DNA from: an uncultured Lachnospiraceae bacterium
GTDB lineage: Bacteria > Bacillota > Clostridia > Lachnospirales > Lachnospiraceae
Reading direction: 5' to 3'
Length of the DNA: 54,705 nt
Assembly (NCBI GenBank): GCA_947565425.1
Contig: CANOFW010000020.1
Span: 1-54,705 of the forward strand
Shown piece after piece: positions 23,258-51,801 of this stretch. Below the pieces are notes generated by a model. The model was not told the DNA's origin and ran no database searches. It saw nothing but the letters and a program-made list of their open reading frames with translations. The stretch's first letter is position 1. Every line of letters starts with the position of its first letter. The position numbers were made by a program, and so were the translations under genes.

Positions 23258-23362
23258 AAATCATCCTCTTTTCCAAACCTGCGCGCGGTTGGTTTTGTAA
23301 TTACATTAATTATTACGGATAGCGAACAGATAATCTATCAAAATTATATTAATAAATAGAAT

Positions 23363-23444
23363 AAAGTGTGCTTGCACACTTTGACGCGCCGAGTGCAGAT
23401 TTGTCCTAAGGGGTACCAGGCTTGCCTGGGGGATGCCTTAGGAC
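23363..23444. repeat. Intergenic palindromes upstream of the sigma gene
   Basis: Two perfect palindromic structures lie in a gene-free stretch. The first is AAAGTGTG-CTTG-CACACTTT (23363-23382). The second is nested: outer arms GTCCTAAGG (23403-23411) and CCTTAGGAC (23436-23444) enclose an inner CCAGG-CTTG-CCTGG stem (23416-23429). Neither is followed by a T run placed for a nearby gene. They look like a folded intergenic repeat or small RNA region rather than simple terminators. Confidence 0.55.
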
Positions 23445-23487
23445 CATGACGCAGTAACATTTTCCTAGTGCACGAGTGCGCATATCA

Positions 23488-23553
23488 TTTTTATCTTATA
23501 GGAAAGCCCTTTCACGCTTTAGCGTGACAAGGTTCTTCCTATAAGATAAAAAA
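23488..23553. repeat. Dispersed hairpin repeat, copy 1
   Basis: Imperfect palindrome: outer arms ATCTTATAGGAA and TTCCTATAAGAT, middle CCTTT/AAGG, inner TCACGC-TTTA-GCGTGA. The core CTTTCACGCTTTAGCGTGAC recurs at 25015-25034 (copy 2). The outer arms differ between copies but stay complementary. It abuts the terminator of the phosphoramidate operon. Confidence 0.75.
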
Positions 23554-23581
23554 CCTCAACTGGGTTGCACCACAGTTGAGG
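23548..23581 (-). terminator. Terminator of the phosphoramidate-type operon
   Basis: CCTCAACTG (23581-23573), ten-base loop, CAGTTGAGG (23562-23554), then six T on the minus strand: a textbook Rho-independent terminator 37 bases after the CysC-like kinase stop. It marks the downstream end of the glycan-related gene block. Confidence 0.93.
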
Positions 23582-23618
23582 GATTCATTCTTTTCAAGAA
23601 CAAAATATCTCAGAAAAT

Positions 23619-24131
23619 TTAGCTTCCATATTTATGGGAAAGTATTATTTGCGCCTGCTCCTCTGGCGACTTATTTCCATCGTTTTGCAATACCAAATCC
23701 GGATTCTGTGGTTCTTCATACTCCACATGGATCCCCACTACAGATTCTTCATTTCCTTTTTCCGACCTGCTGTAGAGTCCTTTTTGATCCCGTTTCTGTA
23801 AAGTTTCCCAGGAAACTTTTACATATACTTCCCGATAATTTTGAATATGCTCACGATTCCACTCCCTTACACTGTGGAACATTGAAATTGTACAGCATAC
23901 AACGTTAATATCTTGTTTTTCTAACATCGCGCAAAGCCTGGAATAACGCATGGCGCATTTCCTGCGGTCTTCTGTCTCATATCCCAAATCACCGCCAAAT
24001 ACTTCACGCATGGTATCTCCATCAAGAAATACCGTATTGGGACACTTTTCTTTTAACTTCTCATAAACAATTTTTCCAATTGTTGTTTTTCCGGCGCCTG
24101 ACAAGCCGGTAATCCAGTATATTTCCGCCAT
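23619..24131 (-). CDS. CysC-like kinase, probable cytidine diphosphoramidate kinase (Cj1415-like)
   Basis: 170 residues of the adenylylsulfate-kinase fold: Walker A GLSGAGKTT at 9-17, LDGDTMREVFGG near 34-45, and the ISMFHSVREWNR segment. In C. jejuni the CysC homologue Cj1415 phosphorylates the 3'-hydroxyl of cytidine diphosphoramidate. I favour that role over sulfate activation because no ATP sulfurylase gene is present and the four upstream genes match Cj1416-Cj1420. Start ATG 24131 has AGGAGG upstream and overlaps the preceding stop by one base (TAATG). Last gene of the unit. Confidence 0.8.
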   Translation of the reverse strand: MAEIYWITGLSGAGKTTIGKIVYEKLKEKCPNTVFLDGDTMREVFGGDLGYETEDRRKCAMRYSRLCAMLEKQDINVVCCTISMFHSVREWNREHIQNYREVYVKVSWETLQKRDQKGLYSRSEKGNEESVVGIHVEYEEPQNPDLVLQNDGNKSPEEQAQIILSHKYGS

Positions 24132-24919
24132 TACATTTCCTCCTGTAACCTTGCCTCCACTACTTTCAGATCCGCGCAATCATCAATTTCAAACCAGCCC
24201 CGGTTAATGTGGATAGCTTTTAAATCATACTTTTCGTCAATCATTCCCTGCAACAAATCTGTCATATACATTTTATCGTATGTACGGGATGTCCGCCATA
24301 AAGGAACGCCCTGTGCCGACCGCTCCTTTGCTTTCCCCGCTACATCCAGCATCGCCTGAAGCCCTGATTCCTGAAAACGCATTAATCCGATGTACTGTGC
24401 TTGAACTCTCTGTAAATCCGTTGTCTTCTGTCCGATTTCCGTCAGTATATCATTCTCATTAAACATCAGCGTCTCGGCATCGTCAAGCGGATTCTCACAA
24501 CGCTCCGACCAGTAACTGTACCATCCATCATCCACAACCACAGAGGCAGCCGCTTTTGATTTGAGGATTTTTCGCAACACATTTTCATTATAAATAATAT
24601 CTCCATAGGAAATCAAGATGTCCTTTTGTGTTTCCATGAAAGCCCTTGCACACATCAGAGAATATACCATGTTCGTCGTCTCATATTCTGTATTTATGAT
24701 AAAATTCTGGGATGACGTTTCAAATTTTTTCTTTAAGACGTCTCCACGATAGCCGGCAATAATCGTGATGTCTTTCTGCTCAATTCCACAAGCATACATA
24801 ATATCAAGCTGCCGTTCAATAATGCTTGTCCCATTCACTTCCACCATACATTTGGGCCTGTCATCCGTCAATGGCCTAAGCCTGGTTCCCTGCCCCGCTG
24901 CTAAAATTATTACTTTCAT
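24131..24919 (-). CDS. Nucleotidyltransferase, probable CTP:phosphoglutamine cytidylyltransferase (Cj1416-like)
   Basis: 262 residues, a nucleotidyltransferase of the MobA/LicC/sugar-phosphate type: ILAAGQGTRLRPLTDDRPKC at 5-24, the metal-binding SYGDII near 104-109, and a C-terminal FEIDD. By sequence alone it could be a phosphocholine cytidylyltransferase (LicC). Its place between a Cj1417-like hydrolase and a Cj1415-like kinase argues for the Cj1416 reaction, CTP plus L-glutamine phosphate giving CDP-L-glutamine. GGAGG is nine bases before ATG 24919. A hairpin repeat lies between this gene and the upstream one. Confidence 0.78.
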   Translation of the reverse strand: MKVIILAAGQGTRLRPLTDDRPKCMVEVNGTSIIERQLDIMYACGIEQKDITIIAGYRGDVLKKKFETSSQNFIINTEYETTNMVYSLMCARAFMETQKDILISYGDIIYNENVLRKILKSKAAASVVVDDGWYSYWSERCENPLDDAETLMFNENDILTEIGQKTTDLQRVQAQYIGLMRFQESGLQAMLDVAGKAKERSAQGVPLWRTSRTYDKMYMTDLLQGMIDEKYDLKAIHINRGWFEIDDCADLKVVEARLQEEM

Positions 24920-24995
24920 GTCCTTTGCCCTCCCGTGCGCACAGTTCTTAACATTTATATCAAAAACAGATCTCTATAGAACAAAGCGGAATTGT

Positions 24996-25061
24996 TTTAT
25001 TTATAGTAAAGGCACTTTCACGCTTTAGCGTGACAAGGTCTTTACTATTTAAGATAAAAAT
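24996..25061. repeat. Dispersed hairpin repeat, copy 2, overlapping a stop codon
   Basis: Arms ATAGTAAAG and CTTTACTAT flank the same CTTTCACGCTTTAGCGTGAC core as copy 1 (23488-23553). Its right edge includes the last codons and stop of the amidotransferase-like gene at 25049. Inside the operon it could act as an mRNA-stability or attenuation element between the two genes. Confidence 0.75.
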
Positions 25062-25654
25062 AACTCTTTTATGCGTTCTATATCCTTGTCTGCAAAAGGA
25101 TTCTCCCGCTCTGGATGCCACATACTACCCATTATGGGATAATTATCCGCCATAACAGCCTCCACAACGCTATCTTCTGCCTGCGCCATGATCCGAAGCT
25201 GCTTCGTAACCCTCCTGCACGCAAGATTATGGTAACTATTCACTTCCATATCTCCCCAGGCTCCATGCACGATATGACGTACCGCCACATGATGCTCCAC
25301 AACTTCCAGCTCGCAGCCAAAATAATCTAAAATAGACTGCATACCACGGCAAAATCCATATACAGGAATATTATTCTTAATGGCAGCCTCTATCATACAG
25401 GCATCCGTATGATCCCGTTCTGGGGCTGTTCCCCCATATCTTTGAATACTATTGCCCCCTGTCAGTACAATGCCGACAGGCTGCAAAAGTTCCACAAACG
25501 CAGCCGGTTCTTCCACAACATTTGGCATTGGAACAGGAAGATAACCGCACGCTTGCAAGAAACGCGGAATATTCTGATCTGCGCAATCCCTACGTTCCTG
25601 ATAACTCTCAACCACCTCGACCCGCTGGGTATAAATGACCATTTTTTTTCTCAA
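25049..25654 (-). CDS. Class I glutamine amidotransferase-fold hydrolase, probable gamma-glutamyl-CDP-amidate hydrolase (Cj1417-like)
   Basis: 201 residues. The catalytic triad is visible: nucleophile Cys102 in YGFCRGMQ, and His180 and Glu182 in MWHPERE; the oxyanion-type LTGGNSI is near 64-70. In C. jejuni Cj1417 hydrolyses CDP-L-glutamine to glutamate and cytidine diphosphoramidate. The start is uncertain: TTG 25654 (used here) or ATG 25642, neither with an ideal ribosome binding site (AAAGGA is about 16 bases before the TTG). Alone it could be read as a gamma-glutamyl-GABA or other gamma-glutamyl hydrolase; the neighbours decide. Confidence 0.8.
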   Translation of the reverse strand: MRKKMVIYTQRVEVVESYQERRDCADQNIPRFLQACGYLPVPMPNVVEEPAAFVELLQPVGIVLTGGNSIQRYGGTAPERDHTDACMIEAAIKNNIPVYGFCRGMQSILDYFGCELEVVEHHVAVRHIVHGAWGDMEVNSYHNLACRRVTKQLRIMAQAEDSVVEAVMADNYPIMGSMWHPERENPFADKDIERIKELFLS

Positions 25655-25743
25655 CTTTATATCCCGTGTCCTTTCTGATTATGCGTCTGTTTTGGCTTTT
25701 CTTCAAATTTCAACTTCTCTGTCACAAAATCGAATCATTTTCT

Positions 25744-26492
25744 TTACCTGACCTGCGCCATCCATACCCGCGTTGTGTATGGCACTTTGATATAACTTTC
25801 CCCCTTCTGCAACACTGCTTTCCTTATTCTTTCAATAATAAACTCAAACTTATCTTTTGACTGACGCTCTATCGTGCCATGGGATTTAAAACCTTCAATA
25901 AAATCCTCCGCTAAGATTTCATGTTCCACCGTTCCCTCAATATAAATCACATCCTGAAACAGCCCGCTGTCATTAATTACCCCGGTCTGGTCTTCTCTTC
26001 TTGTTCCATAATTGTAATCTTCTATCTCAGCCTTGAGAATATCCTCAATCTCCTTTTGCAACGGGTCTTCCAAATCCCTATGGTTCCACATACATGCAAA
26101 CCAGCCCTGATCCTTTAAAATTCTTTTTGTCTCCAGCAAAGCTTTCTGACGGTCGCACACATTAAAAGATGAACCAAACGTCACCAGTTCAAATACATGT
26201 TCTTCCATCCCGCTCTGCTCTCCGGTTCCTTCAAACCACTTCACATCCTGGTATTTTTCCGTCCTGCGTATACCGTTTGCGCGCATTGCGTCGTTTGGCT
26301 CCACTGCAAATACTTTAAGCCCATACTCCGCCAGCTTCAATGTCAGATGCGCGGCGCCAGCCCCCATATCACAAGCGCTGTCCCCTTTTTTACTCCTGCA
26401 ATTTCAAGCATTTTATCAATCGCGCTCTGTGCATAATCCGGCCTTTTCAAATACGCTTCCGCTAAATTCGTGTAATCCCATTCTGTTTTCAT
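25744..26492 (-). CDS. SAM-dependent methyltransferase interrupted by a -1 frameshift
   Basis: Two frames together give a 249-residue class I methyltransferase. The 5' frame (from ATG 26492, MKTEWDYTNLAEAYLKRPDY) runs to a stop at 26343. The 3' frame supplies MGAGAAHLTLKLAEYGLKVF onward. Joined by a -1 shift at 26385-26391 the protein reads ...VKKGDSACDMGAGAAHLT, a perfect SAM-binding motif I. Either strain-specific inactivation, a sequencing error, or programmed frameshifting at A AAA AAG. C. jejuni MeOPN loci contain methyltransferase genes Cj1419/Cj1420 beside the glutamine kinase, so O-methylation of the phosphoramidate is the likely role. AAGGA lies ahead of the start. Confidence 0.75.
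26385..26391 (-). other. Slippery heptamer A AAA AAG at the methyltransferase frame break
   Basis: In the incoming frame the minus strand reads GTA AAA AAG GGG, so the heptamer A-AAA-AAG has the phase of the dnaX-type -1 slippage site. A -1 slip continues GGG GAC AGC, restoring the methyltransferase frame. An AGGAG lies directly upstream, but closer than the stimulatory site in dnaX. Confidence 0.6.
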
Positions 26493-26560
26493 ATTTCGCA
26501 ATCTTCCTTTCTTATCATATCCTGTTATCCAGCAAATCAACTCCCCTGCGGGAAAAAGGT

Positions 26561-28888
26561 TTATTTCAATATTCTGATCTGCTTACCTAACGCATCCAAC
26601 TCTAACACGTTTGCTTTCCTGTACTTTTCAAAATTCTTAGCGCCAACCCCCACTGCCGCCGGAATCCCAAGCTCTCCGGCGCGGATCGCCATATGGGAAT
26701 TTGCCCCGCCGTACATAGTGATAAAGCCCCGGATCCCCCTGGAAAATATCCAATCATATCCCGGATCTGCGCTTGGGATCAACACGATCCTCTCCAGCAT
26801 GTTATCCGCCTGCAAGCTGCTGTCTAAATAAGCCACTTCGCCCAACGCCTTTCCCGACGTGATGAAATTTGGCTCCGAATCCGGATAATAAAATGCAAAC
26901 ACTTCTTCCGGTCTGGCAATAAATGGCGGCAGTGTGAGCACGCGCGTCATTTCATAATTCGCCTTCCCATATGCAATCGTTTCTTTGATGTTTGCCCGTA
27001 TATCCTGCGTCGACGCATATAGATTCATAATTTTCTTTATATTGATATAGGCGCAGTCTTCCTTGGAAAATCCCTGGCTCTCCCCTACATTTCCAATCAA
27101 TTGAATTACCTTGCTCAAACTCTTGGTAAAGACAAATTTGCCATATTCCCTGCCTTCTATGACGCTTTTAATAAAATCCATTAACTCCAAAACATCATTT
27201 CTGAGGTCATTCTCCAGAAGTTTTCCCTTCAAGCGGTTTAACTGCTCCAAAGAAAGGCGGAACACTCCTTTTTTCTCCTGAGAATTTTTCATTTCCTGCC
27301 AATTAAAATACAAATCCGGTGCTTCGTCATAACGCACGGAACTGATGTCATAAGTTCCAGGACGCAAATGTCCATATTTTTTTAAAAACGCGCTTTTAGA
27401 TAACTCTTTCGCATCCGCATTCATTCCCGAACTAATGCTGTTCACCCCATTCATGAACAATTCATAATCCTGTTTACTGAGGATGCCACAGGTAACAAGT
27501 GACTGAAGAATCTGTACGGCGATAAAAGCCGCTCTTGCCAATCCCGCAAAAGGCAGCGTGCCATAACGTTTACAATCCTCTAACAGCCAATAGATCTTCT
27601 CTATCTCACCCATATCACTATCCAGAATTTCTTCGTAACGCTGTTCCAATATCTTTATTCTTTCTGCGTCTTTTCGCCACAATCCTCCTTTGTAATCAAT
27701 AATCTGGTTGGTGACATTTCTCAATGATTCAATAATTTTTGCTATTTCATCCTCTGTAAATCCATAATTTTTCAGAATCTGAATACGTTCCGGCAAATCG
27801 AGCGTATAGCAGGAGAACACAATCTCAAATTCTGCCTTATCATGTTTTTCAGGATTTTGTATCAATCGCTGCAAATAATAATTTACCAGCTTCTTGCTGA
27901 TTTCCTCATCCAATTCCGCCGGCACAAATGAATTAAAGCTTACGCGTACATCAATATACGGCAATCCGCAAAAATCTACCATCAACGGAAAACTACGCAA
28001 ATTGCGATAGCCATAATTATCTCTTTGATATGCCCATACATTGTCCGTGATAATTTCCTGATACAAAGACATGGCCAAAGGCTTCGGCCTTATTCCGATC
28101 ATCTCTGCGGGATTCCAGTCTGTCATGACACTATATACCGTCCGCTCGCCGCATAGAAACGGCTTGGGGGATTGGTCGCGGTGAATCTTATTACAAATAC
28201 GTTCCAATCCAGCTTTTTGTTTCTCAGAACTCACCCTTGACGTTCCCACGCAGAGTGTGCGCACCTGTAAAATATACAAATCCAGTTCTTTTGTAATCGC
28301 AAATTCCACATCAAGATTATCCTGTCCAAAAAACAACTCCAATTCCTTTAACGCTTTGATAAGATTCCCTAACTCGCCTGCATCTTTGCCGCTATCGCTT
28401 TCTTTAAAACAGTAATACAAACAGTTCTCACACTCGCTGCCCGATGTAATTGATGAAGTAGAACCCGTCCTATCATAATTTATAACATAATAGTTACCCA
28501 GCGTATTCGGTTCCAATGTAAATGCAACGCCGCAAACCGACACCTTTTCCAGCATCGGCTGCACCAACACCTGATTCTGCGGATTCATATCATCATAGGA
28601 AGCAACGACTCTATTGACTGCCTGCTCAAACTCAACGCTGCCGCTTACATCAGTGATTGATTCATACTTTCCCGCCTGAGAACTGACGTCTGTATCTTCA
28701 CATAATGAACTGCTCCTTACAATCACAGACTTTTTCCATTCTATCGCATCAAATGCATGAATAATCGCTTCTTTCGTTTTATCCCATTCTGCTACGGTAA
28801 AGGTAAACTGTGGAAGAACTTTTGCATATTCCAGTTGCCCATACAACCTTTTCAGCGTCTCTGCTTTTGTTCCCAGTTTCGCTTTCAT
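26561..28888 (-). CDS. PEP-synthase-fold kinase, probable L-glutamine kinase (Cj1418-like)
   Basis: 775 residues. The N-terminal part (to about 215) is an ATP-grasp PEP/pyruvate-binding domain (VIVRSSSLCEDTD near 54-66, LYILQVRTL). A long middle region follows, and the C-terminal swivelling phosphohistidine domain has GGANSHMAIRAGELGIPAAV with the His near 732. The PEP/pyruvate TIM-barrel domain of true PEP synthase is absent. C. jejuni Cj1418 has this makeup and phosphorylates the amide nitrogen of L-glutamine, the first step of phosphoramidate synthesis. First gene of the unit, under its own promoter. Confidence 0.82.
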   Translation of the reverse strand: MKAKLGTKAETLKRLYGQLEYAKVLPQFTFTVAEWDKTKEAIIHAFDAIEWKKSVIVRSSSLCEDTDVSSQAGKYESITDVSGSVEFEQAVNRVVASYDDMNPQNQVLVQPMLEKVSVCGVAFTLEPNTLGNYYVINYDRTGSTSSITSGSECENCLYYCFKESDSGKDAGELGNLIKALKELELFFGQDNLDVEFAITKELDLYILQVRTLCVGTSRVSSEKQKAGLERICNKIHRDQSPKPFLCGERTVYSVMTDWNPAEMIGIRPKPLAMSLYQEIITDNVWAYQRDNYGYRNLRSFPLMVDFCGLPYIDVRVSFNSFVPAELDEEISKKLVNYYLQRLIQNPEKHDKAEFEIVFSCYTLDLPERIQILKNYGFTEDEIAKIIESLRNVTNQIIDYKGGLWRKDAERIKILEQRYEEILDSDMGEIEKIYWLLEDCKRYGTLPFAGLARAAFIAVQILQSLVTCGILSKQDYELFMNGVNSISSGMNADAKELSKSAFLKKYGHLRPGTYDISSVRYDEAPDLYFNWQEMKNSQEKKGVFRLSLEQLNRLKGKLLENDLRNDVLELMDFIKSVIEGREYGKFVFTKSLSKVIQLIGNVGESQGFSKEDCAYINIKKIMNLYASTQDIRANIKETIAYGKANYEMTRVLTLPPFIARPEEVFAFYYPDSEPNFITSGKALGEVAYLDSSLQADNMLERIVLIPSADPGYDWIFSRGIRGFITMYGGANSHMAIRAGELGIPAAVGVGAKNFEKYRKANVLELDALGKQIRILK

Positions 28889-28968
28889 CTATTGTCCCTT
28901 CTTGACGCTTATACTTGCCTTTATCGTCCATATCATAATGATCCGAAAAGGCTGCTACTACAGATAAA

Positions 28969-28997
28969 ATTCTATATTATAGCCATTTCAATGTCAA
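28969..28997 (-). promoter_or_regulatory. Promoter of the phosphoramidate-type operon
   Basis: Minus strand TTGACA (28997-28992), 17-base spacer, TAGAAT (28974-28969), about 80 bases before the glutamine-kinase-like start. A second TATAAT inside the spacer could extend the melting region. It makes the five downstream genes a separately expressed unit within the glycan locus. Confidence 0.8.
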
Positions 28998-29029
28998 GTA
29001 GTGTTCGAGTTAAGCTTGTTGCATTGTAA

Positions 29030-29057
29030 AGGCAGGAGCAATATATCCGCCCTGCCT
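29030..29057 (-). terminator. Weak terminator after the LicD-type gene
   Basis: AGGCAGG and CCTGCCT pair (seven base pairs, 14-base loop) 26 bases after the LicD-type stop, followed by only TTTAC. Termination is probably partial, allowing some read-through into the phosphoramidate unit. Confidence 0.55.
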
Positions 29058-29082
29058 CTTAGAATTTCATTATAAACTTTAC

Positions 29083-31368
29083 CTAGCACTCCACGTTGCA
29101 GATCATGACCGGCTTATGGAACACCTGAAATTTATTTCCCAGTGCGGAAGGCACACCATAATACCCATCGCACAAAGCAGCCAATGATTCATCCCTCATA
29201 TGCTCTGCCAATATCATACCCTGTCCATCCAAAATTTTTTTCCGTATCCCATAATACTTTGCATATAATGCTTTTCCAACTAGCTTTTCATTTAATTTTA
29301 TCATCATATCTTCTTTCCAGACAAACGCTACTTCCTCTTTATTTCTTAAGGCAGTCTCCAGCACACGTTCCATTTTATCAATCATTTTCTCCCCATGCTG
29401 AATCAGGGCGCTCATGCTTATATAAAACAAAAGCAGCCGCTTCCTCTCCCCGTCCGGTTTGCGGATTCGTTGTTCCCACTCCTGCGGAATCCCTGCTGTC
29501 CGCCCCATTACGTCTCTTTCGCGATCCATCAGCGGAGAACCAATTCCCACAATTTTCTTTTCCCAAATCTCCCTGGTCTCCTCACCTGCAAACTCAGCCA
29601 GCTTATCCACATACACCGCCTTCATCTGCTCGGACTGGACGAAAACAATATCCGCGTTTACCACGCCTGGAACCGTACAATAATAATTCATATTCCAGTA
29701 TTCACGTTCACTCTCTTTATCAAATTCTTCAACCTCAAAGTAAGGGATATAGACTAACTGTTCTGTATAATTGCGAATCTCAGATGAGTAGTATTCCTTA
29801 GGAATACTTGTTGCAGAATTCCATTCATCATAAGGATTCTGAATAAAAATAACATCCGGATGATGCAACGTCAAATCGAATTTCTTATAATCTGCCAGGG
29901 GGATATCCCGCGGATACTCCGACACATTATACACCATATCAAGAAAACTTCCATCATACTCTTTATAATAATACGGCAGCGGAATAACATACACATCCCA
30001 GTCCGCTTCTGACGACACTGCCTCCCATACGCTGTGCAGAGCATCCCAGTACCTGCCACTAAAAGGCAGGAACACGGCTTCCTTCCTCTCAAGTATACGC
30101 CTTGCATCTTCTTTGATACTGCTGCTCAGATGCTTCAGAGCCCTTATCTTTTCATCCGATATGGCATCATTGTGCTGGGCAGCTTCATTATATAATTCAA
30201 ACACTGCTTCGCAGTATTGTTCCAGTTCACATATAATAGAATCATTTCCGCCTCTCACCTGTTCAATCAGGTTCCCCATTTCAATCGCATTCCCCTGAGC
30301 CTCAACCAGAGCTTCCTGTACACGAATCCCTTGGCAGATCTCCCCATGAAGGCGGTCAAACCTATGGATAAATTCTCTGATCTGGTATTTGTATGAAAGG
30401 GCTTGCGTGTCCCGCTTCGGACAAACCCTCGAATATCTGTACCGCGGTAACGGATAGCCAAGGACTTTTTCAAACTGCTCCTTCTGCGACTGAAAAAACG
30501 GATAATCATGCCCAGCCCTGTTTCGCACAAGCTGCATATAATTTCCATACTTTTTCTGAAGCATCTCTTCATATCTGACCGGAAGCATTATTTCAATATT
30601 TTCAAAAGGAACCCGCACCCCATCTTGGAAATAATCCTGCGGAAAGCCGGTAGCTCCATGATATACGGCAAGGGGCATCATCTGCACATAATTTCCTTTC
30701 TTGTCCCCTTCAAAAGCCATCATAAGCTTTTTCACCAACTGATAGAGCTGCATTTTCATTTCCGGATTCGGCAGGAAATGTTTCAAGTCCACCCCGCATA
30801 GCTGTTCAATGCTGTACAAAGCCGACGCCTTTTCCTTCGCAGGCAGCTTCTTTGTCCCCAGTGAATCCGCTACCGCCAGGATATATTCTATCATCTTCTC
30901 CCTTTCCTTCTCCTTCTGTGGGTCAGAGGACAACGTATCCAATATAAAAACATCAATTCCCACAATATAGGGAAATCCATGAAACTGTTTTAAATGTTCT
31001 TCCTCAAAGCAGATCTGTGGTTTTAAGACAATCCTGGACAAGAAATACCAGAAGTTCTCCGTATTCTCCATATTCAATATGGCAAACCCCTGTGGAAGTT
31101 CCGCTGCTGCCACCTGCAAAAAACGTTCATAATCCTTGCGCAGCATCATAATGTCAAAATCATCATCCCACGGAATAAATCCTCCGTGGCGTACAGCGCC
31201 GAGCATTGTTCCCCACTCTGTATAATAAGTAATGTTATGCTTTTGACAAATCTTATCCACCTCATACATAACCGTAAGCTCTGCCGCCCACGCCTTTTTT
31301 ATCATGGCTGGCACGTAAAACCCATCTCTTACTTCATCTTCAAAAAAAGAATCTTCAAATTTCAGCAT
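29083..31368 (-). CDS. LicD-family phosphotransferase with glycerophosphotransferase-like C-terminal half
   Basis: 761 residues from ATG 31368, which has GGAG upstream; a TTG four codons earlier is less likely. Residues 25-230 are a LicD nucleotidyltransferase-fold domain with YTEWGTMLGAVRHGGFIPWD and DDFDIMML as the core. The second half (about 440-760) resembles the region found C-terminal to LicD in other Firmicutes and may be a CDP-glycerol/glycosyl-phosphotransferase-like domain; I am less sure of that. LicD enzymes move phosphocholine or other phosphate-linked groups from CDP donors to surface glycans. It overlaps the upstream dehydrogenase gene by 14 bases, next to a TarI-like CDP-forming enzyme, so a CDP-polyol donor is the obvious candidate. 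Confidence 0.8.
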   Translation of the reverse strand: MLKFEDSFFEDEVRDGFYVPAMIKKAWAAELTVMYEVDKICQKHNITYYTEWGTMLGAVRHGGFIPWDDDFDIMMLRKDYERFLQVAAAELPQGFAILNMENTENFWYFLSRIVLKPQICFEEEHLKQFHGFPYIVGIDVFILDTLSSDPQKEKEREKMIEYILAVADSLGTKKLPAKEKASALYSIEQLCGVDLKHFLPNPEMKMQLYQLVKKLMMAFEGDKKGNYVQMMPLAVYHGATGFPQDYFQDGVRVPFENIEIMLPVRYEEMLQKKYGNYMQLVRNRAGHDYPFFQSQKEQFEKVLGYPLPRYRYSRVCPKRDTQALSYKYQIREFIHRFDRLHGEICQGIRVQEALVEAQGNAIEMGNLIEQVRGGNDSIICELEQYCEAVFELYNEAAQHNDAISDEKIRALKHLSSSIKEDARRILERKEAVFLPFSGRYWDALHSVWEAVSSEADWDVYVIPLPYYYKEYDGSFLDMVYNVSEYPRDIPLADYKKFDLTLHHPDVIFIQNPYDEWNSATSIPKEYYSSEIRNYTEQLVYIPYFEVEEFDKESEREYWNMNYYCTVPGVVNADIVFVQSEQMKAVYVDKLAEFAGEETREIWEKKIVGIGSPLMDRERDVMGRTAGIPQEWEQRIRKPDGERKRLLLFYISMSALIQHGEKMIDKMERVLETALRNKEEVAFVWKEDMMIKLNEKLVGKALYAKYYGIRKKILDGQGMILAEHMRDESLAALCDGYYGVPSALGNKFQVFHKPVMICNVEC

Positions 31369-32434
31369 CTTGTTCTCCAACCACCTTATTCTCCAAGATC
31401 ATGATCTTATTGTAGTATTCCACATGCCCACGCATGATCCTAAGTCCCTTGGGCAAGTCTTCAAAATCCAACGCATGTGTAATTAATCGTTCTGGTTGCA
31501 GGCTCTTAGCCTCCATATGCCGCACCGCCTCGTGCCAGTCGTCCCCCGCCTGATGGGCAAATGAAGAATTCCATGTCCCAGTCAGCCGGAGCTGTTTTCT
31601 TAATATCTTCCAGTAGGATTCTTTGGATAATGCCATTTCGCCTTGGGGATTCCCGACAAGCAGAACCTGTCCCCCCGGTCTGACGCTCTCCAGGCAATTT
31701 GCCACGGTAATCAGGCTTCCTGCACAGTCAATGGCAATATCGGCTCCCTGCCCTCCCGTCTTTTCACAAATCCATTCCCTCACAGCTCCTTCTTCTTCCA
31801 TGCGGTATAAATAATCTTGGGAAGCAGTCTTATGCATCAGGATTCCCGGTTCTTTCCTGTGTCCAACTGCCAACACTTTTTTGATATGTAACGCGTGAAG
31901 CCACTGCGCCACAAGACAGCCAATAGTGCCCAGCCCAAAAATCACAACGGTATCATCTTCCCTCAGCTCAAGCCTTCTTAATGCGTGCAGAGCGACGGAC
32001 GCCGGCTCCAGCATCGCCCCCGCCTCCATGCTTACTCCCGCCGGAAGCTCCAGCAGATTCCACACCGGAACCCTCACATACTCCGCAAAACCGCCGTCGC
32101 TTCTTGAGCCAAGATAATCATAACTGCTGCACATTTCGTATTGACGCTCAATGCAGGAAGAACATCTGCCGCAGGGAATAAGCGGAAAAATTCCCACCCG
32201 TTTCCCAATCCATGTTCTTCCCGGCGCATCACAGGCGTCCACAACCGTTCCGGAAAACTCATGTCCCGGAATTGTCGGAAAATGATATGTGCCCGTCTCA
32301 AATATTCTCGGAATATCAGAGCCGCATATTCCCACTGCCCCCACTTTTACGAGAACCTCTCCTTCTTTCAGTTCCGGCAGCAGACGCTCCATATAGTCAA
32401 GTTGTCCAATCTTATTTAACACATATGCTTTCAC
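31355..32434 (-). CDS. Zinc-dependent polyol-phosphate dehydrogenase (TarJ/GatD-like)
   Basis: 359-residue medium-chain dehydrogenase. Catalytic zinc ligands: Cys in GICGSD, His-Glu in GHEFSG; structural zinc cysteines in CGRCSSCIERQYEMC; Rossmann motif GLGTIGC. Closest by eye to galactitol-1-phosphate dehydrogenase and to TarJ, which reduces ribulose 5-phosphate to ribitol 5-phosphate. With a TarI-like gene overlapping upstream by four bases (GTGA) and a ribulose-phosphate epimerase before that, the TarJ role is favoured. It starts with GTG. Confidence 0.8.
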   Translation of the reverse strand: MKAYVLNKIGQLDYMERLLPELKEGEVLVKVGAVGICGSDIPRIFETGTYHFPTIPGHEFSGTVVDACDAPGRTWIGKRVGIFPLIPCGRCSSCIERQYEMCSSYDYLGSRSDGGFAEYVRVPVWNLLELPAGVSMEAGAMLEPASVALHALRRLELREDDTVVIFGLGTIGCLVAQWLHALHIKKVLAVGHRKEPGILMHKTASQDYLYRMEEEGAVREWICEKTGGQGADIAIDCAGSLITVANCLESVRPGGQVLLVGNPQGEMALSKESYWKILRKQLRLTGTWNSSFAHQAGDDWHEAVRHMEAKSLQPERLITHALDFEDLPKGLRIMRGHVEYYNKIMILENKVVGEQDAEI

Positions 32435-40247: not shown

Positions 40248-40936
40248 ACGCTTTCCTCCAAATGCTCCAAAACTCCTGATTTATATATTTCCCCCGCTAA
40301 TACAAAATCGCTTTCCTCATCAATATCAACGGATTCCAGAGAATCCATAACCAGCATCTGAGGATGTTCCCCAATCCTGGCATTCCTTGCAAGAAAACTA
40401 TCTCTTGAAAAAATATACAGATTAGAATTTTCCTCATACCAGGGCTCTAAGTCCTGTGTCCTTATCAGATGATCCGGATCATGATTGACAGGATGCGCCA
40501 TTTTATCATAAAATCTTGTCTGGACCTTATTCACAGTGAATAAAGAGTCATACTGCCCCAGGCCCTCGAAATATTTTTCACACGCCTTGTCAATTGTACT
40601 GGTCCTAAGCAAAGGGTTGGTTGCATGGGACTGTATATAATAATCTGCCCCAATTTCAGCTATATCGTATTTCAGAATATCATTCATGGATACCATATCC
40701 CCACACAGCCTGGCAGGCCTTTTAATGATTTCAATTTTCCTAAAGTTTTCCACCGCTGTCTGCGCAATCTCATCACTGTCCGTATCAATATATATTTTAG
40801 ACACATATCTGGATTCATGTAAGGCATTCAATATGTGGCACATTAGCGGCCTGTCGCCAAATCTTCTTAAATTTTTATTTTTCACGCGCTCGCTATGCCC
40901 CTTCATAGGAACTAGCGCTGCAAACTTTTCATTCAT
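40244..40936 (-). CDS. Acylneuraminate cytidylyltransferase-like protein
   Basis: 230 residues from ATG 40936. LVPMKGHSERVKNKNLRRFG matches the CTP-binding N-terminus of CMP-sialic acid/CMP-KDO synthetases (usually IPARxGSKxxxxKN), with YIDTDSDEIA, QSHATNPLLR and a final DIDEESDF. No sialic acid synthase, KDO synthase or epimerase is in this window, so the activated compound is unknown. It overlaps the upstream gene by eight bases and the downstream dehydrogenase by four. Confidence 0.75.
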   Translation of the reverse strand: MNEKFAALVPMKGHSERVKNKNLRRFGDRPLMCHILNALHESRYVSKIYIDTDSDEIAQTAVENFRKIEIIKRPARLCGDMVSMNDILKYDIAEIGADYYIQSHATNPLLRTSTIDKACEKYFEGLGQYDSLFTVNKVQTRFYDKMAHPVNHDPDHLIRTQDLEPWYEENSNLYIFSRDSFLARNARIGEHPQMLVMDSLESVDIDEESDFVLAGEIYKSGVLEHLEESV

Positions 40937-42323
40937 ATTGTACACTTCTTTCTTTTAATGCCGGAATAAAGGAGGTGGTAAAATTATAATATTTCTTTCC
41001 CTTTGCCTCGCCATACGCGAGAAGATTTTGCACATTCTGGCAATGTCTCTCATAATAATCCGCATATCCCATATCCCGGAAAAGAGATGGATATGTATCA
41101 AATATCGACTGCATCAGCTCCTTATACTGCGTCCTGTCATTGTGCTTCCAATAAAATGTTTCTCCTTCCACTCTCCCCGTGCTGCCAAAGATTCCCACCT
41201 CGTCACATAATGATGATGCTACTGGCAGCATAGTTTCTGTCAAAATATTTCCTGCCCGCTTTACTGACAGACCTTCTTCCCCTGGGAAACAAATTGCTCC
41301 AGCATTATTCGCAATTCCCATTACATACCCCTCAAATATTGGATAATGCCTCAACAACAAGGGAACTTCACGTTCATAAACAGCAATGTAGAAATGATAT
41401 TTATGCCATCCATCCACTACGTCTGCCAGAAACTGCCTGCAATAAGCCGTAGGGCTCAGATAGTAATTCAAATCTGTAAAAGCAAGTAATGACGGTTTTA
41501 TCACATTTAACATTTCTTTATCTTTTACCATAGAATTACATATTACATTAAACTCCTTATCAATCCCTTTGTACTTTTTAAAATCATTTAAATATTCACT
41601 AATTGACGGACCAGAGCAAAAAACATTCCCTTTCCGGATATTCTTCTGTTCCAATTCCTGTTTCATATTTCTGTAAATCTTCCTGGAATGTTCTCTAAAT
41701 TTTCTCTGTTCCTCTTCTGAAAACGACTGATAATACAACAAATCCCAATTTCCAGTTTCCACATAGTAAAAAAATTCCGGATCAATATTATGTATTTTAT
41801 CTTTATAATCCTCTAATAAATCAGATATCGCTGATACCTTATAAACAAGTATTGCATCAGCCTTATCCATATCCCATTCTTCCAACAAATCTATCCGTTC
41901 AGGCATAAACCACCTGACTTTTTCACACAGCTTTTCATTCTCCTTCCATCCGCCGGGATAGATACACACTTTACGGATACCACAAGGCACTTCCTGCATG
42001 GTCCTGAAATATGGATGAAATTCTTTCAGATAAATTATATTGTTTTGATCCACTCCTGCCTGTGTTAAATTTATACGCATCATCTGCTCATTAGCAAATG
42101 ATGCAATAATAACCTTTTCCCCGCATTTAAGATCTAAATCGGAGACTGCCAGTACATTTTTCCCCTCTGCAATTCCCACCTCTGGAAGAGTCTCTACAAA
42201 TCCAAGAAAATGTTCTTCTCCGTAATTCTCTGTAATAAATTTCTTGCAGTATTTGCCAAAATTGGAAATGCCGTATATATAATATTTATAATTACCAGTC
42301 AATTTTTTATCAAGATCAATCAT
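40929..42323 (-). CDS. Unknown glycan-locus protein A with N-terminal Rossmann module
   Basis: 464 residues from ATG 42323 (GGAG seven bases upstream); the frame extends upstream but without coding sense because it overlaps the hydrolase gene. Residues 12-100 are the recurring module (YYIYGISNFGKYCKK, LGFVETLPEVG). The rest is soluble, with CSGPSISEYL, FNVICNSMVKDKE, LAFTDLNYYLSPTAYCRQF and FYWKHNDRTQYKELMQ. The GPS-then-CNS pattern recalls DUF115/family 42 sialyltransferase folds, but I do not claim it. A close paralogue lies at 44289-45698. Confidence 0.6.
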   Translation of the reverse strand: MIDLDKKLTGNYKYYIYGISNFGKYCKKFITENYGEEHFLGFVETLPEVGIAEGKNVLAVSDLDLKCGEKVIIASFANEQMMRINLTQAGVDQNNIIYLKEFHPYFRTMQEVPCGIRKVCIYPGGWKENEKLCEKVRWFMPERIDLLEEWDMDKADAILVYKVSAISDLLEDYKDKIHNIDPEFFYYVETGNWDLLYYQSFSEEEQRKFREHSRKIYRNMKQELEQKNIRKGNVFCSGPSISEYLNDFKKYKGIDKEFNVICNSMVKDKEMLNVIKPSLLAFTDLNYYLSPTAYCRQFLADVVDGWHKYHFYIAVYEREVPLLLRHYPIFEGYVMGIANNAGAICFPGEEGLSVKRAGNILTETMLPVASSLCDEVGIFGSTGRVEGETFYWKHNDRTQYKELMQSIFDTYPSLFRDMGYADYYERHCQNVQNLLAYGEAKGKKYYNFTTSFIPALKERSVQYE

Positions 42324-43098
42324 CTTTTTTCTCCAAAGCCATCTTTTCTCCCGGCATGAACATCTTAAACTTCTGACCGGGATATTCCCGATATAAGTAA
42401 TCCACAAAAAATGCCGGATTCTCCGTATTATTATCAAACAAATCATAATGCATGGGAACCACATATTCTGTCCCTGCATAATCACACAAATCTAACGCTT
42501 CCCGATATGTCATATTGCCCATGGTATCATTCTCAAACCTTTTCCAGTCATGCCCATTGATTGGGACAAACATCACGTCAAAAGGCCCCGCGTTTTTTAA
42601 ATCATCTGCAAGCTTCTTATCTGCGACCGCATCCCCTGCATGATAAAATTTATAACCCTCCCACGTAAGGACATACCCTAAATTCCCATGCTCACCGTCA
42701 ATCACTGTATATTCCTCATGTTTCTGCGGAATCGCGTATACAGAAATGTCATTTCGTAATTCTATATGCTGGTAAGCCTTTGCCCCAATGATATTTTCCT
42801 CCGAAACGCCGCAGTCCTTTAGCAGATGCATATGCGGGTACGGACAGATAAAAATCATGCCAGGCGCGGCTTTTGCCAGCGCCTGCACGGTATCAACATC
42901 CAAGTGATCCAGATGATCATGGCTGATGAAATAATACATGATATCCTCCAATTCCTCTAAGCCGCATGGCGCCGGATAGTTCCTCTTTCCGCTTCCTGTC
43001 CTCTCATACACACAATTCGACAGATACAAATCAAAACTGACATTAACGCCATTATGCTGTATAAGAAATCCATTTTGTCCTTCATATATGATTTTCAT
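42316..43098 (-). CDS. Metallo-beta-lactamase-fold hydrolase (UlaG-like)
   Basis: 260 residues from ATG 43098, with GGAGGG five bases before it. The metal site HDHLDHLD is at about 68-75, with later ligands in FYHAGDAVADK and VPMHYDLF. The family includes L-ascorbate-6-phosphate lactonase (UlaG) and phospholipase-like enzymes. It overlaps the glycosyltransferase stop upstream (ATGA) and the start of unknown protein A downstream by eight bases. Substrate unknown; a phosphodiester or lactone in glycan metabolism is possible. Confidence 0.8.
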   Translation of the reverse strand: MKIIYEGQNGFLIQHNGVNVSFDLYLSNCVYERTGSGKRNYPAPCGLEELEDIMYYFISHDHLDHLDVDTVQALAKAAPGMIFICPYPHMHLLKDCGVSEENIIGAKAYQHIELRNDISVYAIPQKHEEYTVIDGEHGNLGYVLTWEGYKFYHAGDAVADKKLADDLKNAGPFDVMFVPINGHDWKRFENDTMGNMTYREALDLCDYAGTEYVVPMHYDLFDNNTENPAFFVDYLYREYPGQKFKMFMPGEKMALEKKDD

Positions 43099-44288: not shown

Positions 44289-45698
44289 TCAGACCTCTTT
44301 TTCCACTGGATGGGGATAACTTGAACTTCGTTCTTTCAGTGCCGGAATAAAAGAAACCGTATAATTATAATATTTTTTCCCTTTTGACTCCCCATACTCA
44401 ATTAAATTCTTCACATTCTGGCAATGCCTCTTATAGTAATCTTCATATTCTTGATCCCTAAAGAGCGACGGATAAGCATCAAATACAGACTGCATCAGTT
44501 CTTTATACTGCGTCCTGTCATTATGCTGCCAATAAAAAATCTCACCTTCATCCCTTCCTGTACAGCCAAAAATTCCGATCTCGTCGCACAACTCTGATGC
44601 AACCGGCAACATGGTCTCCGTCATGATATTTGCCGCTCTCTTTACCGTTAATTTTTTCCCACTAGGAAAACAAGGTACTTTAGAGTTATTTTCCAACCCA
44701 AACACATAATCCTTAAACATAGGGTAATGTTTCAGGAATAGTGGGAGCTCATACTCATAAACAGCAATATAAAAATGGTATTTATTCCATCCTTCGATTA
44801 CATCTGCCATGAATTGCCGACAATAAGCCGTTGGGCTGAAATAATAATTTAAATCTGTAAAAGCAAGCAACGATGGCTTTATGACATCCAGCATCTTTTT
44901 GTCCTTCACCATGGAATTGCATATAATATTAAATTCCCTGTCAATTCCTTTATATTTTTCAAACTGTTCTATAAACTCATGGATAGACGGACCAGAGCAA
45001 AAAATATTTCCTTTTCGTACACCTCTTTTTTCTTGCCCAGCCTCCATCTTTTGGAAAACCTGCTTTGATTGTTCCCGATATGCCTCCAATTCTTCCCCTG
45101 AAAAAGAACTGTAATATAATGCACCCCAATTGCTTGATTCTATATAATAAAAAAACTCTGGATCAACAATATATACTTTATCATGATAAGCCTCTAATAA
45201 GTCTGAAGCTGCTGTTGCTTTATAAACTAATATTGCATCGGCCTTGTCCGCATCTTCTACAATCTCAATTCTGTCTGGCATAAACCACCGAATTTTTTCA
45301 CATAATTTTTCATTTGTCCTCCATCCGTCTGGATAGATAAAAACCCTGCCAAAGTGTTCAACAGTACCGCCGACACATTTAAAATACGGAAATAATTCCT
45401 GAAAGCTGATGATGCTGTCTTCTGCAATTCCTATTTGGATTAGATTTTTTTTCATGCTGTCCCCATGAAAAAACGAGCCAATTATTATCTTCTCTCCATT
45501 CCCACACGATATATCGGAGACTGCCAAAACCTGTTTCCCATCAGCCATGTTTAGATCCGGAGCAGTTTCCACATATCCGAGAAAATAATCGTTCCCATAA
45601 TTCTCAAGAATATATTTCCGGCAATACCGGCTAAAATTCGTAATACCATAAATATAATATTTAAATTCACCTTGTATCTTATCGCCTAATAAGTCCAT
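44289..45698 (-). CDS. Unknown glycan-locus protein B, paralogue of protein A
   Basis: 469 residues from ATG 45698 (GGAGG seven bases upstream). Residues 13-105 are the recurring module (YYIYGITNFSRYCRK, LGYVETAPDLN). It is strikingly similar along its whole length to the protein at 40929-42323, for example both contain VIKPSLLAFTDLNYY and SPTAYCRQF, and both end TxSFIPALKERS. This indicates a tandem-type duplication that included an adjoining glycosyltransferase. Function not recognised. Confidence 0.6.
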   Translation of the reverse strand: MDLLGDKIQGEFKYYIYGITNFSRYCRKYILENYGNDYFLGYVETAPDLNMADGKQVLAVSDISCGNGEKIIIGSFFHGDSMKKNLIQIGIAEDSIISFQELFPYFKCVGGTVEHFGRVFIYPDGWRTNEKLCEKIRWFMPDRIEIVEDADKADAILVYKATAASDLLEAYHDKVYIVDPEFFYYIESSNWGALYYSSFSGEELEAYREQSKQVFQKMEAGQEKRGVRKGNIFCSGPSIHEFIEQFEKYKGIDREFNIICNSMVKDKKMLDVIKPSLLAFTDLNYYFSPTAYCRQFMADVIEGWNKYHFYIAVYEYELPLFLKHYPMFKDYVFGLENNSKVPCFPSGKKLTVKRAANIMTETMLPVASELCDEIGIFGCTGRDEGEIFYWQHNDRTQYKELMQSVFDAYPSLFRDQEYEDYYKRHCQNVKNLIEYGESKGKKYYNYTVSFIPALKERSSSYPHPVEKEV

Positions 45699-45766
45699 CT
45701 TTTTCCTCCGAAATTGTATCTGAAATGTCTCAACCTGCAGCCATATGCTGCCTGACATGACAAAAG

Positions 45767-50594: not shown

Positions 50595-51779
50595 CTAATC
50601 ACCTTTCAGCCATTTCAAGTACATTTGATTTCTCTCCTGTTCACTGTAAAAATATTTCATCTGCTCACTCTTTTTATAAATATCATCTAATACTTCTTGG
50701 GGAAGACAAATTTCCTTTTTATGTTCCTGATATGCAAAACGATACAGTTTTTCGTTCCCTACATTTTCTCTGTTCAGATGGAATTGTTCTATTTCCAGAA
50801 ATTTGCCTATTACATCTTCCAGCCCATTCAGGCTTTCCATCTTTATCATTAAAATCTCTATGTTCCCTTGTTTTATTGTACTATATCCTTTTTCCTTGTC
50901 AAAAGGATATTGAAAAATATCTATCTTAAGATACTTCTTTATTTCATTATCAAGCCAGCAGAATTCATGCATCCAGAAACCATCCGGGAAAAAATAATTT
51001 TCTATTTCTGCAAAATCCACCTGAGGGCTGTACATCTCTACCTCTGACACGTTCTGCCACATTGCGGCTATTGTTCTCGCAATCGGATCCCGGACAAGAC
51101 AGATAATTTTTGCAGATTTCAAGTCCAAAAGCTTATACAACTCGCCCTCAGTAAGTTCAATATCATTCAGGCTGTGGCAATGCAGGACATTCCGGTTATA
51201 GTTCTGTATACTATGGTATATGGAAGTCGACGCCACCTTTCCAGGCTGATATACTAAAATTATTTCATCTTGATGCAGTGGTAAAAAAGAAAAATATTGG
51301 AAAACTTTCTTTTGGCTTAATATAGAATTTTCTTTCCTTAGGCAGGCCACTTCGTGTTCCATCAGACTTTTTCTTTTAAATTCAGGATCAACATGTGGAT
51401 TTTCTAAACCAAAATAGATTCCCCATACAATGGCATAATGGGTATATACCGATACCCCCCTCCCTGTATTTTCTTCTATTTCCTTTATAATCTCATTCTG
51501 TGCTTTTATGGAAATAGGCGTGACTAATACTGCCGTTTCCTCTTCAGAAAATATTGCCTCCTTAATCCGCAAATCTTTCGGAGATAGAATTTCGTTTCCG
51601 CAAATACTATTCCCTAATAAATTGCTGTCAGAATCACATAACAAAATACCCTTTCGCCCCGCCCCCATAGATACAATATCCTGTATTATTTCACGCCCCT
51701 TATTTCCAGCTCCCCAAATAACAAGCTTTTTCTCAAATAGCGGCGTAATGTCCTTTAATAACTGTAAATCTTTTACCAT
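50595..51779 (-). CDS. Sulfotransferase-fold protein with N-terminal Rossmann module
   Basis: 394 residues from ATG 51779 (GGAGGAGG upstream). Module at 16-110 (KLVIWGAGNKGREIIQD, ILLCDSDSNLLGNS). From 173 a P-loop-like QPGKVASTSI (178-187) and CLVRDPIARTIA match the 5'- and 3'-phosphate binding loops of PAPS-dependent sulfotransferases. The donor would be PAPS, or conceivably another 3'-phosphonucleotide; see findings. No sulfate-activation genes are nearby. Confidence 0.7.
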   Translation of the reverse strand: MVKDLQLLKDITPLFEKKLVIWGAGNKGREIIQDIVSMGAGRKGILLCDSDSNLLGNSICGNEILSPKDLRIKEAIFSEEETAVLVTPISIKAQNEIIKEIEENTGRGVSVYTHYAIVWGIYFGLENPHVDPEFKRKSLMEHEVACLRKENSILSQKKVFQYFSFLPLHQDEIILVYQPGKVASTSIYHSIQNYNRNVLHCHSLNDIELTEGELYKLLDLKSAKIICLVRDPIARTIAAMWQNVSEVEMYSPQVDFAEIENYFFPDGFWMHEFCWLDNEIKKYLKIDIFQYPFDKEKGYSTIKQGNIEILMIKMESLNGLEDVIGKFLEIEQFHLNRENVGNEKLYRFAYQEHKKEICLPQEVLDDIYKKSEQMKYFYSEQERNQMYLKWLKGD

Positions 51780-51801
51780 CCGTTCCTCCTCCAATATGCT
51801 G

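Follow-up and report, generated by a model that had tools for sequence, protein, structure and literature searches.

This report concerns the window, an entire contig (C20) of 54,705 bases from a bacterial genome of 3.36 Mb, and in particular a minus-strand cassette within it that appears to encode the synthesis of an activated phosphoramidate. C, L and G numbers denote contigs of this genome, loci and genomes, respectively. The nearest named relatives of the window organism, among the best 80 of at least 568 matches in a scan with the cassette's kinase, are Lachnospiraceae. Read along the minus strand, the cassette opens with a 775-residue protein of glutamine-kinase type (Cj1418 type, 26561..28888), followed by a broken methyltransferase, MT1 (25744..26492), and a 201-residue protein of gamma-glutamyl-CDP-amidate hydrolase type (Cj1417 type, 25049..25654). 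A LicC-like nucleotidyltransferase of 262 residues (24131..24919) and a CysC-like kinase of 170 residues (23619..24131) complete it; these are proposed to be a CTP:phosphoglutamine cytidylyltransferase (Cj1416 type) and a kinase of CDP-amidate, or cytidine diphosphoramidate (Cj1415 type). An earlier note on this DNA had described five consecutive minus-strand genes: the positions and strand are as it gave them and four genes are intact, but the methyltransferase is split between frames.

The four core enzymes

The 775-residue protein combines a PPDK_N domain (PF01326) with the PEP-utilizers mobile domain (PF00391), whose histidine, H732, is invariant in seven sequences, and a domain family search found no match to the phosphoenolpyruvate (PEP) barrel. 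It scores 949.8 bits against NF004508 (cut-off 501). This architecture is the one expected of a glutamine kinase, as the earlier note had proposed. An ordinary PEP synthase is ruled out by the missing barrel and by a score far above the NF004508 cut-off. A sequence search of the PDB returned three weak matches only (a designed repeat protein, a PEP synthase and LHD101B4). Relatives of the kinase occur in 14 of 72,556 plasmid records (E 1e-40), and a phage gene is ruled out by their presence in just 1 of 50,697 phage records (E 1e-10) and one viral contig.

Among NCBIfam models, the 201-residue protein fits NF045546 (gamma-glutamyl-CDP-amidate hydrolase) best, at 115.6 bits (next family, 56.5); this is the function of Cj1417. 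The same model matches all 49 hydrolase relatives scanned, and a Cys-His-Glu triad (C102, H180 and E182) is invariant across the 49. At E 1e-20, NF045546 was found in only 2 of 398 genomes across the phylum, the window's own among them. The 262-residue protein belongs to the NTP_transferase family, and its closest solved structure is 1jyk, the CTP:phosphocholine cytidylyltransferase LicC. The libraries used gave no model specific to phosphoglutamine cytidylyltransferases, and the proposed role draws on family matches and synteny.

Selection appears to maintain all four genes. Measured against the nearest relative, L044, the ratio of nonsynonymous to synonymous substitution rates (Ka/Ks) is 0.06-0.20 for the intact core genes, with synonymous sites near saturation for three of them; it is 0.06 for the kinase and 0.09 for the CysC-like protein.

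Distribution, and the CysC-like kinase

The scan covered named genomes, and the 80 loci kept from it lean to close relatives. Genes were counted by blastp bits against the window proteins, within the stored stretch of each locus; alignments used subsets, mainly with near-copies removed (21 of 22 members for A2, 49 of 66 for A6, 41 of 48 for A7 and 6 of 8 for A8). The hydrolase is present in 75 of the 80 loci, the nucleotidyltransferase in 76, CysC in 68 and the methyltransferase in 58. All three other core genes accompany the kinase in 66/80 loci, and in 44/48 where more than 6 kb is available on both sides, a recurrence that rules out chance adjacency. The hosts are Bacillota (38), Pseudomonadota (22), Acidobacteriota (7), Spirochaetota (4), five other phyla with one locus each and four unassigned, and the full core is found in seven named phyla. 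Fusions join kinase to hydrolase (L006 and L007) and CysC to kinase (L080, L088, L091, L095, L101, L106, L113 and L120). In a Pseudomonas locus (L089:6080-9837), the cassette follows the FlgK and FlgL genes, which suggests a link to flagellin glycosylation; some of the neighbour clusters recur in other Pseudomonas loci.

The CysC-like protein matches PF01583 and exceeds the cut-off of NF004041 (197.4 bits against 127), and it falls under the cut-off of the apsK model TIGR00455 (129.7 against 138.7). A tree was built from 54 cassette CysC domains and 19 others. All but one of the cassette sequences (53), the window's included, lie beyond a branch with 100/100 support, and the CysNC protein of the window's own genome groups with the kinases of adenosine 5'-phosphosulfate (APS). 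Eight alignment columns divide cassette CysC from APS kinases; the consensus is TISMF in the former and FISP in the latter, and one of the columns is T83, where FISP has F. Residue numbers follow the 172-residue version used in the searches (24137-23619); the gene itself starts at the ATG at 24131.

Genomic context points the same way. ATP sulfurylase was sought as CysD (E 1e-20) and Sat (E 1e-10) in 40 of the 80 locus genomes, in G000 and in G104. Both proteins went undetected in 26 of the 40, and 20 of these 26 carry a cassette CysC. It is the only CysC found in Anaerotruncus colihominis DSM 17241 (a complete genome), Eubacterium 14-2, Lachnospiraceae 28-4 and Butyrivibrio XPD2002. Single absences are weak because many genomes are drafts or metagenomes. 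Taken together, the separate clade, the replaced FISP motif and the genomes lacking detected ATP sulfurylase lead us to reject a true APS kinase, and by these marks the CysC-like protein is a kinase of cassette type, in line with the earlier note. That note had also named an outcome that would count against it, namely closest relatives in unrelated PEP synthase, LicC and true APS kinase families; our results contradict this outcome for the kinase and CysC only.

These findings bear directly on an alternative in which an ordinary APS kinase and sulfotransferases using 3'-phosphoadenosine 5'-phosphosulfate (PAPS) form a glycan-sulfation locus, beside a kinase and a hydrolase of unrelated use. 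The PF01583 match is consistent with it, as is the capacity of the window genome to make PAPS with CysD (C23:32707-33588) and CysNC (also on C23). So is L125, where an NKWYS relative, of the family discussed below, is flanked by a CysQ and a CysD gene. Against it stand the 100/100 separation of the clade with its changed motif, the 20 genomes that carry a cassette CysC without detected ATP sulfurylase, and the location of the sulfate genes on a separate contig; we regard it as highly improbable.

We favor a pathway in which the core makes phosphoramidate in activated form, which a sulfotransferase-fold enzyme then attaches to a surface glycan, and we give this explanation as a whole a probability of about 0.68. 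The product of 28888-26561 would phosphorylate the amide of L-glutamine with ATP, the product of 24919-24131 would couple phosphoglutamine with CTP to give gamma-glutamyl-CDP-amidate, and the product of 25654-25049 would hydrolyze off glutamate to leave CDP-amidate. The product of 24131-23619 would then phosphorylate the 3' position, yielding 3'-phospho-CDP-amidate, the cytidine counterpart of PAPS. We hold these four steps to be very likely. A sulfotransferase-fold protein would next move the phosphoramidate onto a glycan hydroxyl, which for relatives in general we find somewhat more probable than its opposite, and methyltransferases would O-methylate the phosphoramidate at some stage. Each reaction is proposed from homology, gene order, fusions, the CysC clade, selection and the fold of one relative's transferase candidate. 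Strong support for a common biosynthetic core comes from the family matches, the synteny across several phyla, the fusions, the CysC clade and the presence of CysC in genomes lacking detected ATP sulfurylase. The earlier note had proposed an O-methyl phosphoramidate pathway here; its biosynthetic core stands, and its "O-methyl" and a pathway at work in this organism are not supported in this way, with MT1 broken and the transferase-like neighbor at most a remnant.

Proposed transfer and modification of the group

Many relatives carry a sulfotransferase-fold gene next to the core. Three models of such proteins were built from 34 loci (18 + 10 + 6), and they detect a gene in 38/80 loci, the 34 source loci included; the remaining loci are L044 (fragments), L094, L096 and L116. 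A structural model of one relative's transferase candidate, a group-8 protein, shows the PAPS-sulfotransferase fold. The structure search with this model also matched a single IMPDH chain, across residues 3-182 of the model, and the N-terminal part is perhaps CBS-like. Group-8-like N-terminal parts also occur in L132:14334-16790 and L133:10069-12231 (contig C3), joined there to C-terminal parts resembling PF04464 or citrate lyase ligase; the common part is probably an accessory domain that glycan enzymes share. PF13469 was tested in 40 of the 80 genomes. Its matches fell inside the locus in 5/5 cases in four genomes without ATP sulfurylase versus 0/9 in five with it (p 0.008 by genome), a contrast formed after seeing the data and limited to Bacillota or unassigned genomes. 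Seven rows with in-locus coordinates were dropped, since they were judged to lie on other contigs, their open-frame length being unlike that of the local reading frame. Outside this subset, two genomes without ATP sulfurylase gave 1/4 (G678) and 0/3 (G680). One PF13469 match, in L072, was missed by the three models.

In Azospirillum lipoferum 4B, a plasmid gene (L169:5644-8184) encodes 846 residues with a cassette-type CysC at the C-terminus and a sulfotransferase-like RNPFDWYISSYYW motif in the N-terminal part, a possible transferase-kinase fusion. For that N-terminal part, a PDB search gave no match at E 1 and Pfam gave Sulfotransfer_2 only at E 0.22, so what points to a sulfotransferase there is the motif, which was recognized by eye.

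The window itself lacks the usual neighbor. Candidates for its transfer step would be the protein of 50595-51794 or a gene elsewhere. The former belongs to the NKWYS family; a P-loop (QPGKVASTS) and an RDP motif were seen by eye, and its hhalign comparison to the sulfotransferase group was not significant. It could be an ordinary sulfotransferase, because the genome has CysD and CysNC, and the L125 neighborhood (L125:584-3699) suggests that NKWYS proteins are PAPS sulfotransferases. Elsewhere in the genome, the sulfotransferase-like gene C3:195325-196773 matched PF13469 only at E 0.0028, with hhalign not significant.

Transfer might instead follow another route, in which CDP-amidate or its 3'-phosphate is the cassette's product and LicD- or TagF-like (PF04464) enzymes transfer the group. 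LicD and TagF normally transfer phospho-groups from CDP-activated donors. The candidate here would be the protein of 29083..31380, a LicD domain (by family match) with a tail like that of cluster 11 proteins, whose gene is the adjoining intact upstream gene in both the window and L044. Proteins resembling the cluster 11 tail occur in seven loci, immediately ahead of the kinase in L046 and L050, PF04464 genes lie near the cassette in Vibrio (L170), Pseudohalocynthiibacter (L172) and Pseudomonas (L102), and Spirochaetota loci in which no CysC was seen would need a route of this type. Such transfer would, however, leave a 3'-kinase under selection unexplained, and glycan loci commonly contain LicD and PF04464 in any case; we judge it unlikely.

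As for MT1, residues 1-37 and 35-249 of a relative align with two pieces that adjoin each other in different frames (about 26492-26382 and 26391-25747), and the pieces share 79% and 81% identity with an intact relative. The 207-residue open reading frame at 26367-25744 is the C-terminal piece only, and it falls within the MT1 clade. Given the remaining identity, the break is either recent or a sequencing or assembly error. A second methyltransferase, MT2, is intact on another contig (C3:170553-171323), falls inside the MT2 clade and is 73-83% identical to MT2 of other cassettes (eight rows listed); O-methylation in the window organism would depend on it. Its gene directly follows rplJ and rplL. 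As rplL and rpoB usually lie side by side, a single glycan locus may have been inserted between them, with C3 and C20 as its two ends. The contigs neither overlap exactly at their ends nor have a 21-mer in common within the last 600 bases, so the single locus is inferred from rplL/rpoB adjacency.

In L044, the flanking proteins are 78-98% identical to those of the window (87% and 98% for the two beside the cassette) and the four core proteins 76-80%; Ks is 0.75-2.6 in the cassette versus 0.37 in two flanking genes. The cassette therefore seems to have been exchanged as a block. MT2 is intact in L044. The cassette of the window organism could also be decaying, its intermediates made now or until recently and nothing transferred, which is compatible with our preferred explanation for relatives. 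The MT1 frame break, a possible group-8 remnant and the fragments in L044 fit decay, but four intact core genes with Ka/Ks of 0.06-0.20, the high identity of the MT1 pieces, which points to a recent break or sequencing error, and the intact MT2 speak against it, and we think decay rather unlikely. That the organism displays O-methyl phosphoramidate is doubtful.

Several loci suggest a different modification. A formyltransferase-like protein (PF00551 for L098; alignment of six) occurs in 7/80 loci (L068, L098, L102, L103, L107, L108 and L122) and in L036, and in six of these eight a partner of about 190 residues stands beside it; one partner was scanned and had no family match. By the blastp-bit threshold, methyltransferase is present in 0/7 formyltransferase loci versus 58/73 others (p 5.4e-5), and in 0/5 versus 57/72 with near-copies removed (p 7.8e-4). 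These loci would be a variant of the cassette, with formylated phosphoramidate as a possible product.

A number of observations weigh against the phosphoramidate pathway as proposed. The kinase model alone is not diagnostic: when 250 genomes of the window's family were sampled, seven exceeded the NF004508 cut-off, the window's own among them, and of the other six only L036 has the full set, L037 and L038 showing just the kinase-hydrolase fusion and L039-L041 just the kinase, so that five show neither nucleotidyltransferase nor CysC nearby. Four Spirochaete loci (L068, L075, L085 and L093) have kinase, hydrolase and nucleotidyltransferase, with no CysC or methyltransferase seen, and perhaps represent a shorter pathway ending at CDP-amidate. 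The CysC of L036 is the sole exception in the tree, grouping with APS kinases on a long branch; neither CysD nor Sat was seen in its genome, G104. The Cj1417-like hydrolase of the earlier note keeps its best family and triad but misses the curated equivalog cut-off of NF045546 (115.6 against 250), and the cassette's methyltransferase is not intact. For the transfer step, 42/80 loci gave no match to the three sulfotransferase-fold models, and L044 has only fragments of the sulfotransferase-fold gene and MT1 upstream of its kinase. Ten of 14 locus genomes with ATP sulfurylase also have a sulfotransferase-fold gene, which is thus not confined to genomes without that enzyme. Glycan loci in general may attract sulfotransferases, and our counts come from loci that carry the kinase. 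In the window, a start remnant of a group-8 gene is possible at 25703..25738 (MIRFCDREVEI, then a stop), between MT1 and hydrolase: most group-8 proteins begin MIRF and nine residues, MIRFCDREV, are identical to a group-8 start, a match that is weak by sequence (E 0.35 over the whole window) and notable for its location only.

Surroundings, known systems and significance

Minus-strand glycan genes from 54593 to 29083 precede the cassette (glycosyltransferases, an epimerase, SDR, WcbI, cytidylyltransferases and LicD). Two similar proteins among them, 40929-42485 and 44289-45758, have no Pfam match. Downstream follow genes for an ECF-type sigma factor (23257-22706) and for a protein without family match (22709-21522), and then rpoB (21428-17466). 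Position 28997, where the interval of the earlier note ended, coincides with a promoter-like sequence ahead of the kinase gene (28969..28997, TTGACA-17-TAGAAT), the best such match within 23300-31500 at 11/12 positions by consensus alone. A palindrome, CCTTGTCACGCTAAAGCGTGAAAG, is identical after the cassette (23509-23532) and between hydrolase and nucleotidyltransferase (25015-25038); with up to one mismatch it has 16 copies in the genome, versus 0 for the reversed control, and it looks like an intergenic hairpin element.

The cassette resembles the Campylobacter jejuni genes Cj1415-Cj1422 in its four core enzyme types, as judged by family models. The order kinase, hydrolase, nucleotidyltransferase, CysC is that of Campylobacter, and the earlier note's observation on the last three genes agrees with it. 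The cassette family has two methyltransferase paralogues, as Campylobacter does in Cj1419 and Cj1420. Differences are the hydrolase score, a methyltransferase between kinase and hydrolase, sulfotransferase-fold or LicD/TagF-like neighbors and a host related to Lachnospiraceae. Because of the hydrolase cut-off, the broken methyltransferase and a Campylobacter comparison made through family models, we do not claim strict membership; the cassette would work like the Campylobacter core. With the PAPS system it shares the CysC family, the 3'-phosphonucleotide logic and the sulfotransferase fold of relatives' neighbors, but its CysC forms a separate clade with another motif.

Surface phosphoramidate outside Campylobacter offers a further likeness, in lipopolysaccharide of Xanthomonas campestris and Shewanella, and we know of no genes for it. 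A published study describes that group as non-methylated, and states that 9 of 13 Campylobacter strains with orthologues gave a phosphoramidate signal (PMC3907429); genes therefore do not prove product. A 2019 review has O-methyl phosphoramidate identified so far in Campylobacter alone (PMC6429109), and a 2022 review describes the glutamine kinase as specific to C. jejuni (PMC9561416). Among the titles and abstract openings listed (at most 25 per search), our search found no report of the pathway in a Gram-positive bacterium. Against these Campylobacter-only accounts, the sequence evidence widens the biosynthetic core to seven named phyla among the 80 loci, many of which are in Bacillota.

Attachment of the group is termed unclear for C. 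jejuni serotype HS:19 in a 2026 article (PMC13276843). That relatives' cassettes often lie beside sulfotransferase-shaped genes suggests, in testable form, how the group might be attached, and a sulfotransferase-fold transferase using a PAPS analogue makes that idea concrete. In a broader and more tentative view, to which we give slightly less than even odds, 3'-phospho-CDP-amidate would be a second PAPS-like currency of bacteria, made by a cassette found across many phyla, with several diverged sulfotransferase-fold branches switched from sulfate to phosphoramidate and the final group in methyl and formyl flavors. Many Campylobacter phages recognize O-methyl phosphoramidate, according to the 2022 review (PMC9561416), and other cassette-bearing bacteria may therefore share this phage-recognized surface type.

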